From positions 1 to 35,443 of the forward strand of contig NZ_JAJUJR010000002.1 in NCBI RefSeq assembly GCF_029265225.1: 35,443 nt of DNA, read 5' to 3'. Below the pieces are notes generated by a model, which worked only from the letters and a program-made list of their open reading frames with translations, was not told the origin of the DNA and did not search any database. Numbering within the stretch: the first letter of the stretch is position 1; the number at the start of each line of letters is the position of its first letter. The DNA comes from Sedimentibacter sp. GTDB lineage: Bacteria; Bacillota; Clostridia; Tissierellales; Sedimentibacteraceae. The translations under genes were made by a program, and so were the position numbers. Positions 12,746-19,976 of this stretch are shown piece by piece.

Positions 12746-13216
12746 TTATTTGTCTTCCAGTGCCTTATCTACTGCTTCCTTGATGGCATTGCTTGTTACA
12801 GTTGCTCCGGATACACCTTCAACATCTGTTGAGTCTTTTTCTTCAATTTTATCAGGCAGCTCTTCGATAGCTTTTGAGCCAACGCCTTGAGTTTCTTTTT
12901 CTCCAACAGCTTCAACTGAAACTATGTCATCACCGTCAACAGTTACTGTTACAGTTACTTCCCCTCCGTATCCCTGAGCCGAACCTTGAAGTGTACCTGC
13001 TCCGGCTGCACCATTACCGCCGTTTGTTCCTGTTCCGTTTGTTCCGGTCCCGTTTGTTCCGTTCCCTTTTGCATCGGTTCCGTTTGTTCCAGTTCCATTT
13101 GTTCCTGTGTTGTTGTCTGTATTGCCTGTGTTGTTGTTATCATCATTGTCCGCACATGCAACCAAGCCCAAACTCATGATTATCATCACACATAATATCA
13201 ATGCTATTTTTTTCAT
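12746..13216 (-). CDS. FMN-binding domain lipoprotein with a low-complexity NGT/GTNG linker
   Basis: MKKIALILCVMIIMSLGLVACADN lipobox; YGGEVTVTVTVDGDDIVSVEAVGEKETQGVGSKAIEELPDKI...GVSGATVTSNAIKEAVDKAL; SGAT fits an ApbE flavinylation motif. Start set by GGAGG upstream of 13216. Confidence 0.85.
   Translation of the reverse strand: MKKIALILCVMIIMSLGLVACADNDDNNNTGNTDNNTGTNGTGTNGTDAKGNGTNGTGTNGTGTNGGNGAAGAGTLQGSAQGYGGEVTVTVTVDGDDIVSVEAVGEKETQGVGSKAIEELPDKIEEKDSTDVEGVSGATVTSNAIKEAVDKALEDK
13022..13130. repeat. Coding low-complexity tandem repeat (Gly-Thr-Asn linker)
   Basis: Repeated CCGTTTGTTCC/TGTTCC units encoding GTNGTGTNGT. Confidence 0.8.
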
Positions 13217-13310
13217 AATAACCTCCATGTTATTTAACTTCAAAAATAGTATAACCAACCAATATTATTCCATTCATCAAAAATTTTCATAAAAAAGTTG
13301 CTCGCAAATA

Positions 13311-13343
13311 AAAAAACCGGCAATTAATTTGCCGGTATTTTTT
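13311..13343. terminator. Bidirectional-looking rho-independent terminator
   Basis: AAAAAA-CCGGCAA-TTAAT-TTGCCGG-TATTTTTT. Confidence 0.8.
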
Positions 13344-15030
13344 ATTTAATTGTTAAATCCAGTTCAACTTTGTTTTCAAAAGATTTAACTATTGCAGCTA
13401 TTATGTCTCCATGTGCATCAGTCAAGCTCATTGTTGCTGTTGATGTAACATCTGCAAGCATTGCTTTTTCATCAGCAGATAAAGCATCATATTTAGCCTT
13501 GTCTTCAGGTTTATCAGATCCATCTTTTAATGGTCTTCCGTTTAAATCAGAAGTGTATTTATCATTCCATTCCTGGATTTCTTCAACAGTCTTTCCAAGG
13601 AACATGTCTTCAAAATAATCCATCTGATCTGTCCAAGTTCCTGTATTGAGTCTGTAAGAGTCTCCTCTTTCTCTCTTAGTTACCCAGCCTTCAACTTCTT
13701 TCAGGAAGCTTTCGTCAGTAACTGTCAGAGTTGCATCAACTTTTTCATCATGGTTTTCATCATAGTTGTATGATTGTCCTGTAAAACCAGAGAAATGAGG
13801 CATTTCAGCTCCGTCATAGTTTGGTGTTGCAACTTCAAGAATGTCTACGTTAAGAGATACAAGTTTTCCGTCCTTGTCAAACAATGAGTTTGCAAAAACC
13901 TTGTTGATGCTGTAAACCTGTACATCTTTGTCATCTTTTCCAGGGCCCACACGCGGAACGCTTACAAGAGCAGTTCCCTGTGAAGCTATTTCTTCAGTTT
14001 CTACAGGAATGCGGTTTTCATATGCTTCTTTTATTGCAGCAACTATGTCACCGTGAGCATCTTTCAAGCTCATCGTTGCGCTACCGATAACATCAGCAAG
14101 CATTGCTTTGTCTTCTTCGCTTAAAGCCTTATATTTTGCCTGATCTTCTGGTTTGTCAGAATCAGCTTTCAAAGGTCTGCCGTTTACATCTGATGTGTAT
14201 TTATCAAACCAGTTCTGTACTTCTTCAACAGTCATTCCTACGAACATGTCCTGGAAATAATCCATTTGGCTGGTCCAAGTTCCTGTAGCAAGCTTATAGC
14301 TGTCTCCTCTTTCTCTCTTTGTGTTCCAAGAGTTTACTTCAGCTTTAAAATTATCTTCAGTGTCAACAGTCTTTGAGTCTACAACTTCATCATGATTTTC
14401 ATCATAGTTGTATCCGCCTTGTCCTGGGTATCCGCTGAAATGAGGCATTCCTTCTCCGTCATAGTTAGGAGTTGCTACTTCTAATATATCTACGTAAAGA
14501 GAAAGAATTTTTCCGTTTTCATCGAACAATGCATTTGCAAATACATCATTTGTACTGAAAACCTGAGTTTCAGTATTATCCTTGCCAGGTCCCAGACGTC
14601 CGATGCTTGCAAGTCCAAATCCCTGGAATACTTTTGCAGCAGACTGAGAGATAGGATCTTTTTCTTCTTTAACTTCTTCTGTAGGAGCCGGATACTTTGC
14701 AGGATCCAATGCATTGTTTACAGCATATATTATTGCTTCGCTTGTATATGTAGCACCTGCAATAACGTCTACATCAGTTGAATTTGCTTCAACTATTTTC
14801 GCAGGAAGCTGCTCAATTGCATTTGAACCGATTCCCTTTGTTTCGTTTTCGCCAACTGCTTCTACTTTTACTATTTTGTCTCCTTCTTTAGTTACTGTAA
14901 CAGTAACTTCTCCGCCGAAACCTTTGCCAACTCCTGTCAAAGTTTCTGTTGCCGGAGCTTGTTCCTTGGCACATGCAACAATGCTTAAAAGCATCAAGGC
15001 ACATACCGTGATTGAAACTAGTTTTTTCAT
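13342..15030 (-). CDS. FMN-binding domain lipoprotein with two tandem copies of an uncharacterised ~190-aa domain
   Basis: MKKLVSITVCALMLLSIVACAK lipobox; FMN-binding domain ending VIAGATYTSEAI; two copies of GPGKD...QV.S.N.VFAN.LFD..GK..SL.VDILEVATPNYDG..MPHFSG...YNYDENHDE.VD. Start set by GGGAGG upstream of 15030. Confidence 0.85.
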   Translation of the reverse strand: MKKLVSITVCALMLLSIVACAKEQAPATETLTGVGKGFGGEVTVTVTKEGDKIVKVEAVGENETKGIGSNAIEQLPAKIVEANSTDVDVIAGATYTSEAIIYAVNNALDPAKYPAPTEEVKEEKDPISQSAAKVFQGFGLASIGRLGPGKDNTETQVFSTNDVFANALFDENGKILSLYVDILEVATPNYDGEGMPHFSGYPGQGGYNYDENHDEVVDSKTVDTEDNFKAEVNSWNTKRERGDSYKLATGTWTSQMDYFQDMFVGMTVEEVQNWFDKYTSDVNGRPLKADSDKPEDQAKYKALSEEDKAMLADVIGSATMSLKDAHGDIVAAIKEAYENRIPVETEEIASQGTALVSVPRVGPGKDDKDVQVYSINKVFANSLFDKDGKLVSLNVDILEVATPNYDGAEMPHFSGFTGQSYNYDENHDEKVDATLTVTDESFLKEVEGWVTKRERGDSYRLNTGTWTDQMDYFEDMFLGKTVEEIQEWNDKYTSDLNGRPLKDGSDKPEDKAKYDALSADEKAMLADVTSTATMSLTDAHGDIIAAIVKSFENKVELDLTIK

Positions 15031-15200
15031 GATACCCTCCCATTGTGATATATATTCAGTATTAATCATACTGAATGCATAAAAATTTTCCTCAGCAAGA
15101 ATGTTAAAAAATCTACATTTTTATTCAAACTGCTGCAAGAAAACGTATCTTTATAATAACACCTAAAATTATTTTAGTCAATATAAACATAAGTCATAAA

Positions 15201-15299
15201 CCGTGTTAAGAAAGCATAAAGAAAAGTTCATTCTTACTTATGAAATCTTAACACTCATGGCATAACCTTAACACGGAATTAATGCTTTCAGTGTTAAAA
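15201..15299. promoter_or_regulatory. Putative operator cluster upstream of the Ktr operon (GTGTTAAG/CTTAACAC repeats)
   Basis: CCGTGTTAAG at 15201-15210, CTTAACAC at 15247-15254, CTTAACACGG at 15267-15276 and GTGTTAAAA near 15291. Confidence 0.5.
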
Positions 15300-15325
15300 T
15301 ATTATTGCAATCAAGGAGGTGTCAT

Positions 15326-15811
15326 ATGGAATTAATTATAGTATTAATGCTGATTGCATTGTATTTTGTAGGCTTCAAATTCATTGACAGCATTTATAAA
15401 CTTGCTTCTCCCTGCGAAAAAAAACCAGTCTCTGAAAAACATGATGAGAGCAGCAAACTCAGCGTTTCCGATGAAAAGAAAACGTTTGATGCCTTAATAT
15501 ACGGAAACGAGGATTATTGCAATGAAATTTCAGATTCATTGAAAACATACAACATAAGTTCCGAAACGCTCAATGATTTAAATGCAGTTAACATGTCAAA
15601 CTCCTATAAATTTTTGATTGCAGCAGGAAACTCAGATCTTGACAATCTGACCATTTGCTCCATAGGGACAAAGATGATGGAAATAGATAAAGTATTTGCT
15701 GTGTGCAACCAGACTTACAGCAGGAAATTATATGAAGAAAACAACATAAACATATTCAAATCATGCTGCGCTGCAGATGACATTGCACGCACAGTTGCAA
15801 CATTCAGCTAG
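15326..15811 (+). CDS. Membrane-anchored protein with a divergent TrkA-N/RCK-like domain
   Basis: N-terminal TM (MELIIVLMLIALYFVGFKFIDSIYKLA); FDALIYGNEDYCNEISDSL...KFLIAAGNSDLDNLTICSIGTKMMEIDKVFAVCNQTYSRKLYEENNINIFKS resembles TrkA-N; AAGGAGG RBS; directly upstream of ktrB. Confidence 0.65.
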   Translation: MELIIVLMLIALYFVGFKFIDSIYKLASPCEKKPVSEKHDESSKLSVSDEKKTFDALIYGNEDYCNEISDSLKTYNISSETLNDLNAVNMSNSYKFLIAAGNSDLDNLTICSIGTKMMEIDKVFAVCNQTYSRKLYEENNINIFKSCCAADDIARTVATFS

Positions 15812-15821
15812 GAGGGACATT

Positions 15822-17165
15822 ATGTTTGAATTAAAAAAAATTAAACTTAATTATACAGAAATAATAGTCTTTGGTACATTTGCCATAATTTTTCTTGGAG
15901 GTGTTCTGTTAAGCCTTCCTGTTTCTTCACGAGAAGGAATTTCCACTCCTTTTCTGGACTCACTGTTCACGGCTGCATCAGCCTTTTGTGTCACAGGCCT
16001 GGTGGTTTATGATACATACACACACTGGTCCATGTTCGGCCAGACAGTCATACTTTTACTTATTCAAATAGGCGGCTTGGGATTCATGACAGTCATAACG
16101 CTGTTTTCTCTTTTCCTCAGGAGAAGAATAGGGCTTAAGGAAAGAAGACTGTTGATGGAATCAGCAAACACGTTAAAAATTGGCGGAATAGTTCTTCTGG
16201 TAAAAAAAATCATTATAAGAACATTTATTTTTGAAAGCATAGGTGCCTTTGTTCTTACCTTAAGCTTCTACAGGCGTATGGGCCTTAGGGAAGGATTATA
16301 CAACGGAATATTCCATTCAATATCTGCCTTTTGCAATGCAGGATTTGACCTTATGGGTAAATACGGACAAAATTCATCCCTGACGCACTTCTATGATAAT
16401 CCTGCAGTCAACATTACAATTATGTCGCTTATAGTAATAGGCGGCCTTGGTTTTGTGGTTTGGGACGATGTGGCTTTAAACCGCAGTGATTTTAAGAAGT
16501 ACCAGCTTCATTCAAAACTTGTGCTTGTTGCAACAACTGTTTTAATTTTCGGCGGAGCACTGATATTTTTCATGGTAGAAAGAAATTTCAGCATGCTGGG
16601 AATGAACATTGGGGAAAAAATACTTGCATCGCTGTTTCAATCCGTAACAACCAGGACAGCAGGATTCAATACAATCAATCTTAACGGAATGTCAGAAGGC
16701 GGAACACTCTTAACCATTATACTTATGATAATCGGCGGAAGCCCAGGCTCCACTGCCGGAGGAATTAAAACCACCACATTTGTTGTTCTTTTGCTTGGAG
16801 CCTTGTCAAATGCAAAACAAAGCTCTGAAATTTCAGCATTCAAGCGAAGACTTGAAAGTGATGCTTTAAAAAAAGCAAGCGCCATAACGGTTATTTATAT
16901 AACTACGGCACTTGTTGCGGTAATGACCATATGTTCTGTTCAGAATTTTTCACTGACGGAAGTTATGTTTGAAGTATTTTCAGCACTTGGAACAGTTGGT
17001 CTTTCATTGGGAATTACACCAAGCTTAAGCATGGTTCCAAAAATAATAATAACTCTTCTTATGTACGGAGGAAAAGTCGGCGTCTTGTCTGTTGCCATTG
17101 TTCTGGCAGAAAGAAAAGAACCATCACTGTTAAGCAGACCTCTTGGAAAAATTATAATCGGATAG
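15822..17165 (+). CDS. ktrB: K+ uptake transporter subunit, KtrB/TrkH family
   Basis: TAASAFCVTGLVVYDTYTHWS, HSISAFCNAGFDL, QSVTTRTAGFNTINL, GGSPGSTAGGIKTTT pore-loop motifs; RBS GGAGGG before 15822. Confidence 0.93.
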   Translation: MFELKKIKLNYTEIIVFGTFAIIFLGGVLLSLPVSSREGISTPFLDSLFTAASAFCVTGLVVYDTYTHWSMFGQTVILLLIQIGGLGFMTVITLFSLFLRRRIGLKERRLLMESANTLKIGGIVLLVKKIIIRTFIFESIGAFVLTLSFYRRMGLREGLYNGIFHSISAFCNAGFDLMGKYGQNSSLTHFYDNPAVNITIMSLIVIGGLGFVVWDDVALNRSDFKKYQLHSKLVLVATTVLIFGGALIFFMVERNFSMLGMNIGEKILASLFQSVTTRTAGFNTINLNGMSEGGTLLTIILMIIGGSPGSTAGGIKTTTFVVLLLGALSNAKQSSEISAFKRRLESDALKKASAITVIYITTALVAVMTICSVQNFSLTEVMFEVFSALGTVGLSLGITPSLSMVPKIIITLLMYGGKVGVLSVAIVLAERKEPSLLSRPLGKIIIG

Positions 17166-17174
17166 GAGAATAAT

Positions 17175-17825
17175 ATGAAATCAGTATTAATTATAGGAAT
17201 GGGCGCCTTTGGACGTCATTTGGCGCTTAAAATGACAGAATTAAAAAATGACGTTATGATAGTTGACAAGGATGCTGCAATTATTGAAGACATGTCTTCT
17301 CAGGTAACAGATGCTCAAATCGGCGACTGCACAAAGGAAGATGTTTTAAGAGCTCTTGGTGTCGGTAATTTTGATGTTTGTTTTGTAACAATAGGCGATA
17401 CATTCCAATCATCCCTTGAAATAACTTCACTTTTAAAGGATTTGGGTGCAAAGTACGTGATTTCCAAAGCCAGCAGGGATATTCAGGCAAAGTTTCTTTT
17501 AAAAAACGGCGCAGATGAAGTTGTCTATCCAGACAAGGACATGGCTGACAAGCTTGCCATCAGATGCAGCGCAAACAACGTTCTTGATTATTTTTCAATA
17601 TCCAACGACTACTCCATATTTGAAATACCCATTATGAAAAGCTGGACCGGAAGAAGCATAGAGGAAATAAATGTAAGAAAAAAACACCATATAAATATTC
17701 TTCTTATTAAAAACGGAAGCAAAATTATGACTCTCCCAAAGGCAGATTACATTTTTAAAGAAGATGATTTAGTACTGGTTCTGGGAAGGTCAGAAGATGT
17801 TCTCAGATTTTCAGACAGCATATAA
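17175..17825 (+). CDS. ktrA: K+ uptake regulatory subunit, KtrA/TrkA family
   Basis: MKSVLIIGMGAFGRHLALKMTELKNDVMIVDKD Rossmann motif and C-terminal TrkA-C-like region (FKEDDLVLVLGRSEDV). Confidence 0.93.
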   Translation: MKSVLIIGMGAFGRHLALKMTELKNDVMIVDKDAAIIEDMSSQVTDAQIGDCTKEDVLRALGVGNFDVCFVTIGDTFQSSLEITSLLKDLGAKYVISKASRDIQAKFLLKNGADEVVYPDKDMADKLAIRCSANNVLDYFSISNDYSIFEIPIMKSWTGRSIEEINVRKKHHINILLIKNGSKIMTLPKADYIFKEDDLVLVLGRSEDVLRFSDSI

Positions 17826-17829
17826 ACAT

Positions 17830-17852
17830 AAAAAGTGCCCTAGGGCACTTTT
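17830..17852. terminator. Bidirectional terminator between the Ktr operon and the two-component system
   Basis: AAAAAGTGCCCTAGGGCACTTTT palindrome. Confidence 0.85.
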
Positions 17853-18537
17853 ATTCATCTGCAAACCTGTATCCCACACCTATTTCAGTAAGTATGAACC
17901 TTGGATTTGAACTGTCCTTTTCAATTTTTCTTCTGAGGCTTGCCATGAAAACCCTTATGCTTTTGGAATCCCCTGCTTCTCCGTATCCCCACACTTCCTT
18001 TGAAATCTGACTGTGGGTCACAACCTTTCCGCGGTTTGCAATCAATAGCAAAAGGAGCTTAAATTCTATGGGTGTGAGATGCACCTCTGTTTCATCAACA
18101 AATATCCTTCGTTTTTCGCTGTCCACTGTCAGGCAATCAAATTTATACACGCTTTCAGGCATGTGGGCTATTTCTCTTTCAATAAGTCTTTCCATTACAC
18201 GCAATCTTGCAAGGAGCTCTCCCATGGAAAAAGGCTTTGTCACGTAATCGTTGGCTCCTTCATCCAAAGCCTGAATTTTATCGCTGTCCTGTTCCCTTGC
18301 TGATACAACAATGATTGGAATGTTTGAAACGTTACGTACCTGTTTAATGATGTTTATGCCGTCCATGTCAGGAAGTCCCAGGTCCAGGATTATTATGTCG
18401 GGATTTTCTGTGCAGAACGAAAGAATTCCTTCATTTCCGTTATGTGCTGTCACAATGGAATACCCCTTGGCCTTAAGGGCCATGGTCACAAAATTAAGTA
18501 TTTTGTTGTCATCTTCAATTACCAGAATTTTAGCCAT
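17851..18537 (-). CDS. OmpR-family response regulator, KdpE-like
   Basis: MAKILVIEDDNKILNFVTMALKAKGY...DIIILDLGLPDMDG...VTKPFSMGELLARLR and a winged-helix C-terminus (WGYGEAGDSKSIRVFMASLRRKIEKDSSNPRFILTEIGVGYRF). Confidence 0.92.
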   Translation of the reverse strand: MAKILVIEDDNKILNFVTMALKAKGYSIVTAHNGNEGILSFCTENPDIIILDLGLPDMDGINIIKQVRNVSNIPIIVVSAREQDSDKIQALDEGANDYVTKPFSMGELLARLRVMERLIEREIAHMPESVYKFDCLTVDSEKRRIFVDETEVHLTPIEFKLLLLLIANRGKVVTHSQISKEVWGYGEAGDSKSIRVFMASLRRKIEKDSSNPRFILTEIGVGYRFADE

Positions 18538-19976
18538 TATTCAACCTCCAAAGGGAGCCTGACTTTAAACACCGCTCCGCCTGTAATATTATTTTCTGCT
18601 GTTATTACTCCCTTGTGGGCAGTTACAATTTCCTTGCAAATTGTCAGTCCAAGACCAACACCCAGGTGCGAGTCCACAATGTTGTTCTTATGCTTGGTCA
18701 CAAAACCGTCAAACACCCTGTTCAGTATTTCCGGGTCAATGCCTGCACCGTTGTCAGAAATTTCAAAAACAGCAAATGCACCGTCAGTATATACCTTAAG
18801 AAAGACAGATGCTCCCTCCCCTGCATATTTGTAGGCATTGTCTAGCAGATTGACCAGAACCTGCACAATTAATTTTCCCTCAACAGGAACAAGAATTATT
18901 TCCTCAGGAACAATCACATGAAGCCTTCCTGAGGATGTCAGAGAAGGAACATGAGACAATGCCTGGTTTACAATGTCATCAACAGCTTCAAAATCTTTGT
19001 TCAGGGTTATTATTCCCTCTGAAAAACGTGTCATGTCCAATATGTTTTGAACGGTTTTTATGAGCCATGCAGATTCATCGCATATGTCTGAAGCAAGTTT
19101 TTTTACGGACTTTGGATCAAGACTGTCATAGCTTTCCAGAATAAGCTCCCCTGCTCCCTTTATTCCTGTCAGCGGAGTGCGCAGGTCATGGGAAATGCTT
19201 CTTAGAAGAGTGCTTTTCAAATGTTCGCTTTCCATATCAACTCTTATTTTTTGTCTTTCCTCATAAATAAACTCCCTGTCCAGCACTATTGCCATCTGAT
19301 GGACTATTGCCTTAATGAGCATGTCAATTTCGTTTGTTATGGGAACATTGCAGTTAACTATTTTCATAACTCCCAACTTTTTACCTACACCCTTAATAGG
19401 AATTATGTTTATATTTGTTGTAACGGAATCTGCATAGTCCGGAAGTCCTTCAGTGCTGTAAACCTGTTCGCAGGCATCTAACTTCACGTAGCAGTCAAAA
19501 CCAACATAATCCTTTATAAAGTTAATGCCTTTCAAAACAATGTTGTCCCTGCCTGTGACATTTAAAAAACCCTTTGTTACATCATATAGGAGTTTTGCAG
19601 TTCTTTCATTTCTTTTTGACACCTCTGTCTGATACTGAAGCTTTGAAGTCATTGTGCTTGAAATCAGCGAAGCAATCAAAAAAAACACAATGAGTATAAC
19701 ATCATCTGAATTGCTTATCTGAAGGCTGTGGTACGGCTCAGTAAAAAAATAATTGAACAGGAGAACACTGAGAACAGCAGCAATGGCGCTGTATATGTAT
19801 CCCCTTGTAAATATGGTTACCGTAAGAACACCCACTATAAAAACCATAAGTGAGTTTTCTTTCCCTATGCCTAGACTGTTCATTATGAAAGAAAGGATTA
19901 CGGACAAGACACAGATTAAAATTACATTTAAAAAATATTTAAAATTCAATTTATTGTTATGGAAATAATTTTTCAT
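18537..19976 (-). CDS. Sensor histidine kinase, KdpD-like (DUF4118 TM region plus kinase; lacks the N-terminal KdpD/Usp part)
   Basis: DUF4118-type TM segment (GRGYIY-like: TRGYIYSAIAAVLSVLLFNYFFTEPYHSLQI), H-box SISHDLRTPLTGIKGAGELI, N-box and GVGLGLTICKEIVTAHKG. Only 479 aa. Confidence 0.88.
   Translation of the reverse strand: MKNYFHNNKLNFKYFLNVILICVLSVILSFIMNSLGIGKENSLMVFIVGVLTVTIFTRGYIYSAIAAVLSVLLFNYFFTEPYHSLQISNSDDVILIVFFLIASLISSTMTSKLQYQTEVSKRNERTAKLLYDVTKGFLNVTGRDNIVLKGINFIKDYVGFDCYVKLDACEQVYSTEGLPDYADSVTTNINIIPIKGVGKKLGVMKIVNCNVPITNEIDMLIKAIVHQMAIVLDREFIYEERQKIRVDMESEHLKSTLLRSISHDLRTPLTGIKGAGELILESYDSLDPKSVKKLASDICDESAWLIKTVQNILDMTRFSEGIITLNKDFEAVDDIVNQALSHVPSLTSSGRLHVIVPEEIILVPVEGKLIVQVLVNLLDNAYKYAGEGASVFLKVYTDGAFAVFEISDNGAGIDPEILNRVFDGFVTKHKNNIVDSHLGVGLGLTICKEIVTAHKGVITAENNITGGAVFKVRLPLEVE

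Follow-up and report, generated by a model that had tools for sequence, protein, structure and literature searches.

The DNA analyzed here, a 35,443-nucleotide stretch of a Sedimentibacter sp. contig (NZ_JAJUJR010000002.1, positions 1 to 35,443; 'the window'), encodes a small membrane-anchored RCK-like protein (hereafter TM-RCK, 161 aa; 15326..15811, + strand) next to a Ktr potassium transporter, and this raises the question of whether the protein is a further part of that transporter and, if so, what it does there. The initial annotation, made from the sequence, had placed the gene directly upstream of ktrB and ktrA, and its neighbors bear this out: ktrB (TrkH/KtrB family pore, 447 aa; 15822..17165, + strand; PF02386, E 4.5e-62; TIGR00933, E 1.8e-101) starts 10 nt past the TM-RCK stop and is followed by ktrA (216 aa; 17175..17825, + strand), which encodes TrkA_N and TrkA_C domains (PF02254, E 2e-25; PF02080, E 4.1e-12) with an intact GMGAFG. 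Beyond ktrA lie a convergent kdpE-like response regulator (17851..18537, − strand; PF00072, PF00486), which is conserved at the locus, and a short kdpD-like sensor kinase (DUF4118-HisKA-HATPase; 18537..19976, − strand) in which no KdpD N-terminal or Usp domain was found. KdpA was not found in the organism's own genome (81% complete), so the kdpDE pair probably serves Ktr. On the other side, two neighboring FMN_bind proteins are encoded at 12746-15069 (− strand); the shorter contains a GTNGTGTNG low-complexity stretch, and the other (575 aa) has a long internal duplication after its FMN_bind domain.

Upstream of TM-RCK, TTAACAC repeats, both direct and inverted, occupy positions 15240-15297 and are kept across Sedimentibacter. 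Within them, two CTTAACA half-sites 20 bp apart (15244..15285, + strand) resemble KdpE half-sites; they form a candidate KdpE site that we regard only as a lead. The pattern of two TCTTAACA half-sites 20 bp apart scores 13-15/16 upstream of TM-RCK in 11/11 tested Sedimentibacter loci, against a shuffled mean of about 10/16, a comparison that overstates the significance because the pattern was picked after the window had been seen. In many Sedimentibacter loci the half-sites are followed by TTTATAC; the pattern also occurs in some distant loci (e.g., L155, 16/16) and is absent from others. As to a riboswitch upstream of the gene, there was no Rfam match in the window.

The gene starts with ATG preceded by AAGGAGG; a weaker alternative TTG start is found upstream in the same frame, at 15305. 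As the initial annotation had proposed, hydropathy and AF2 models give a small protein with one N-terminal TM helix and a linker. The TM helix (residues 2-27; 15329..15406, + strand) is seen in the AF2 helix, in the hydropathy of 21 members and in the TM alignment, and it continues into an amphipathic end with the family consensus GYxxMxKIDxFI; the linker (residues 32-50; 15419..15475, + strand) is disordered by AF2 and, to judge from its Ka, evolves fast; the remainder (residues 55-161; 15488..15808, + strand) is an RCK_N-like domain without the GxGxxG loop and beta3-alphaC. An AF2 model of the whole protein (12-sequence alignment) has a pLDDT of 81.9, and that of the domain (21 sequences) a pLDDT of 93.9 and a pTM of 0.88, with five strands and alternating helices; both models show an alternating beta/alpha fold from about residue 55. 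TM-RCK has no RCK_C (TrkA_C) domain: there is no PF02080 match, and the C-terminus comes directly after the N-domain. D104, N107, C127 and N128 are invariant across the family (21-member alignment, A3).

A comparison of three close genomes gives Ka/Ks values of 0.15-0.21 for TM-RCK, 0.05-0.07 for ktrB and 0.03-0.04 for ktrA. Within TM-RCK, Ka is 0.07 for the TM part, 0.08 for the domain and 0.28 for the linker (linker Ks 0.37); constraint thus acts on the helix and the domain but not on the linker, as expected of a tethered domain. These substitution rates, together with a TM-RCK-ktrB gene order that recurs in 25/28 loci (vide infra), argue against chance and, with the conservation of the protein, exclude a spurious or decaying ORF; to judge from the sequence comparisons, TM-RCK is a real, constrained gene. 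We also rejected a phage origin, as tblastn gave no match in phages. A scan of contigs with the single window protein recovered only two close relatives (S. saalensis DSM 13558 and the MAG UBA6113), and profile searches of whole genomes were needed to find the others.

Taken alone, the TM-RCK sequence of the window has no Pfam match, so the protein has probably been left as 'hypothetical' in annotations; its match in NCBIfam is weak (TrkA, E 0.02, residues 60-143). The family is more informative: the A3 profile (21 members) matches TM1088A (E 2e-8) and TM1088B (E 1.2e-5), Pfam TrkA_N (PF02254) is matched by 17/21 members at E up to 1 (best 2.4e-9), and hhalign gives 97.9% against the TM1088B-like proteins of related genomes. 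In TM1088A, it is the second half that the family profiles match, in agreement with the earlier reading of the region as the second half of a TrkA-N domain. The same comparison with the neighboring KtrAs gives no match (hhalign, 1.3%), which excludes TM-RCK as a duplicate of its own partner. The best PDB match in Foldseek is 3l4b, the TM1088A:B ring (E 3.9e-3, TMq 0.70); by sequence and fold searches the domain is RCK/Rossmann-like, as the initial annotation had supposed, and has TM1088A/B as its nearest relatives, with the reservation that the fold alone does not set it apart from a receiver. Because two usual features of RCK_N, the six-strand Rossmann fold (five strands by AF2, beta3-alphaC being absent) and the glycine loop, are missing, we classify the domain as divergent and RCK_N-derived rather than as a standard member, although the family matches the RCK_N profile.

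The spacing between the beta1 Gly and the DxxN motif that opens alphaD is 42-48 residues in 21/21 members and 70-73 residues in KtrA and in the TM1088A-like and TM1088B-like domains; the whole family thus lacks approximately 25 residues, namely beta3-alphaC, which forms part of the nucleotide site. No aligned member has a GxGxxG nucleotide-binding loop, and the glycine motif is invariant in 16 KtrAs of TM-RCK operons. The initial annotation was therefore right that YGNEDYC replaces the glycine motif, but it was incomplete, since beta3-alphaC has gone as well. In RCK rings, the alphaD-alphaE half contributes to the surface used for assembly; TM-RCK has lost the ligand-sensing half and kept this one. 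In TM1088A, the contacts to AMP include the glycine loop, Gly57 and Ala59 (PMC4380455). By our reading, the equivalents of Gly57 and Ala59 fall in the part missing from TM-RCK. The suggestion that the domain is possibly ligand-blind is strengthened: with the glycine loop and beta3-alphaC absent in all members examined, the TM-RCK domain is, on this alignment evidence, very probably ligand-blind.

Like KtrE of the Synechocystis KtrABE system, TM-RCK would be an additional Ktr component; KtrE is a lipid glycosyltransferase, unrelated to RCK domains. KtrE is the named extra component of that system besides KtrA and KtrB (PMC4380455). KtrA/TrkA proteins (PF02254 + PF02080) share with TM-RCK the RCK_N-type fold and the context of K+ uptake; unlike them, TM-RCK is membrane-anchored and has neither RCK_C nor a nucleotide site. 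A two-protein RCK ring with an N-domain-only subunit is known from Thermotoga maritima (TM1088A:B, 4:4; PMC4380455), in which TM1088A is soluble, has an intact GxGxxG and binds AMP (PDB 2G1U, 3L4B; PMC4380455). TM1088A is the closest solved relative of TM-RCK by sequence and the protein that it would most resemble in its way of working. Like TM-RCK, it is small and consists of a single TrkA-N (RCK_N) domain without RCK_C, and its gene accompanies those of a TrkH-type pore and of a full-length partner of the TrkA type; TM-RCK differs in having a TM anchor, in lacking the glycine loop and beta3-alphaC, and in accompanying KtrB/KtrA. The gene set of a TM1088A-type ring, that is, an N-domain-only RCK protein, a TrkH/KtrB pore and a full-length RCK partner, is thus present at the TM-RCK locus. 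The earlier statement that known Ktr/Trk rings are soluble holds for the TM1088A and TM1088B subunits, but the regulators are not all single-subunit (PMC4380455). What is new in TM-RCK is the membrane tether and the deleted ligand site; an N-domain-only RCK subunit has precedent. In the open-licence literature we found no paper describing TM-RCK, nor anything relevant on membrane-anchored RCK subunits, on third RCK subunits or on the Ktr of Sedimentibacter.

Two other arrangements of RCK genes were observed in these genomes. Sedimentibacter also has a second K+ locus (L032, G000:C176, 184-6558; also L030 and L031), which encodes an unusually fragmented TrkA system with TrkH, a full-length TrkA-type protein, kdpDE, single-domain RCK_N proteins of 133 aa and 150 aa (the latter seen whole in L030) and a 168-aa protein with a hydrophobic stretch at either terminus. 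In several genomes, TM1088A/B-like pairs (RCK proteins of 143-146 aa and 221-226 aa) are encoded directly upstream of trkH, often behind response-regulator genes (L029, 6480-9038; L063, L064, L065).

In total, we found TM-RCK in 28 loci of 27 genomes from 8 families and two classes of one phylum; other profile matches, mostly full-length TrkA-type proteins, are left out of these counts. Sedimentibacter contributes 12 loci (11/25 genomes); profile searches added another family of the same order (G221, G224), 9/391 genomes sampled from the class, one genome of the phylum sample from a different class (G724) and four further relatives of G596. In 25/28 loci ktrB is immediately downstream on the same strand, with ktrA next (the L179 contig is cut inside ktrB); where the boundaries are clear, the distance from TM-RCK to ktrB is −8 to +22 nt, and the two genes often overlap by 4 nt. 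The TM-RCK-linked KtrBs form one clade (support 100/99), and all 11 Sedimentibacter genomes with intact TM-RCK have this clade, as against 0/12 of those without TM-RCK; in the remaining two, G020 has only the TM piece and a contig end cuts G006. Sedimentibacter has a second ktrBA clade, located behind rplT, and next to this one there is no TM-RCK and no kdpDE. The genome neighborhoods are thus consistent with the initial annotation, as TM-RCK is kept beside ktrBA both in related genomes and in other families.

We conclude that TM-RCK is probably an undescribed third subunit of one kind of Ktr system; our preferred explanation, to which we assign a probability of roughly 55%, is that it is a dedicated, membrane-tethered pseudo-RCK accessory subunit of one KtrAB clade. 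The operon suggests that TM-RCK would be made together with KtrB, by co-translation, and under KdpDE control. The TM helix would keep the domain close to KtrB on its cytosolic face, and the pseudo-RCK domain could dock on KtrA or KtrB via its retained alphaD/alphaE surface; TM-RCK itself would not read ATP/ADP, but it would retain KtrA at the pore or bias the conformation of the ring, and so the gate. In Vibrio, the N-termini of KtrB already connect the KtrA ring with the membrane and the gate, and Gram-positive KtrBs reportedly have shorter N-termini that lack the hydrophobic patch (PMC12059179); we speculate that a separate tethered subunit could fill this role.

The strongest rival makes TM-RCK a co-sensor for the short KdpD: it would bind the DUF4118/HisKA region of the kinase in the membrane, report the state of Ktr and take the place of the N-terminal sensor domains absent from this KdpD. 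We consider this possible, if unlikely. Outside Sedimentibacter, the genes usually run TM-RCK, ktrB, ktrA, kdpD and kdpE in one direction, and short-form kdpDE (or the part that the contig reaches) is present in every TM-RCK locus with enough sequence (in G003, close to the locus but not adjacent). KdpD is thus associated with TM-RCK about as constantly as KtrB, so KtrB is not a uniquely constant partner and KdpD is a live alternative. Two loci (G289 and G489) count for the co-sensor and against an accessory subunit of KtrAB: TM-RCK directly precedes kdpD, ktrBA is divergent, and the KtrB sits on a long branch outside the clade of TM-RCK-linked KtrBs. The KdpDs of the exceptional loci cluster with KdpDs from other TM-RCK loci. 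On the other side, kdpDE is on the opposite strand in Sedimentibacter, where TM-RCK is tightly joined to ktrB, and in G553, where ktrBA is absent apart from a weak, short match to the 3' end of ktrA (E 0.011), kdpD is frameshifted, as if the module decays without Ktr. The G553 locus itself (L154, 4998-7917) is apparently decaying, with TM-RCK still open.

The two partners could also be combined, with TM-RCK physically bridging KtrAB and the short KdpD by reading the conformation of the KtrA ring and passing this state to KdpD; we hold this to be doubtful, but, if true, the activity of the transporter itself would control ktrBA transcription.

A special form of the accessory-subunit explanation is a mixed ring like that of TM1088A, in which the TM-RCK domain would replace some KtrA N-domains in a hetero-octamer. 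The 4:4 ring of its closest solved relative with TM1088B (PMC4380455) favors such a subunit, but we think it quite unlikely: the deletion of beta3-alphaC changes the edge of the domain, a tether would constrain the ring geometry, and the KtrA at the TM-RCK locus is canonical. This last point also counts against an accessory subunit in general, as a canonical KtrA may form a complete ring alone.

Very unlikely, in our estimate, is that the TM helix is the essential part, a KdpF-like stabilizer of KtrB, and the RCK-like domain dispensable. KdpF (of KdpFABC) is likewise a small single-TM protein beside a pore of the same superfamily, but it has no cytosolic domain, and profiles of the TM-RCK helix gave no KdpF match in Pfam or the PDB, so we rejected a KdpF-like helix. 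In G020, the TM part of TM-RCK continues in frame into KtrB and the RCK domain is missing (L044, 1502-1660), as a stabilizing helix would allow; with Ns and a gap beginning some 130 bp further downstream, this joint is doubtful, and it is either a natural fusion or an assembly fault. The purifying selection on the domain and its four invariant residues also argue against dispensability.

The weakest reading, that the domain is a divergent CheY-like receiver and not RCK, is highly improbable: receivers do reach similar Foldseek TM scores (HP1043, TMq 0.76; PhoB, TMq 0.72), but only TrkA-type proteins are matched well by sequence profiles, 0/21 members match Response_reg in Pfam, and removal of edge strand beta3 from the RCK_N order 321456 leaves 21456, the receiver order (strand order inferred, not taken from coordinates), which explains the fold matches.

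Descriptions of KtrAB give it two components, with KtrA as the sensor of ATP/ADP. That a third gene is conserved, and that its product is tethered to the membrane and has no ligand site, implies an additional level of regulation or assembly in one KtrB clade, for which the related ktrBA without TM-RCK in the same genomes provides a natural comparison; TM-RCK may also be a direct link between KtrAB and its sensor kinase.
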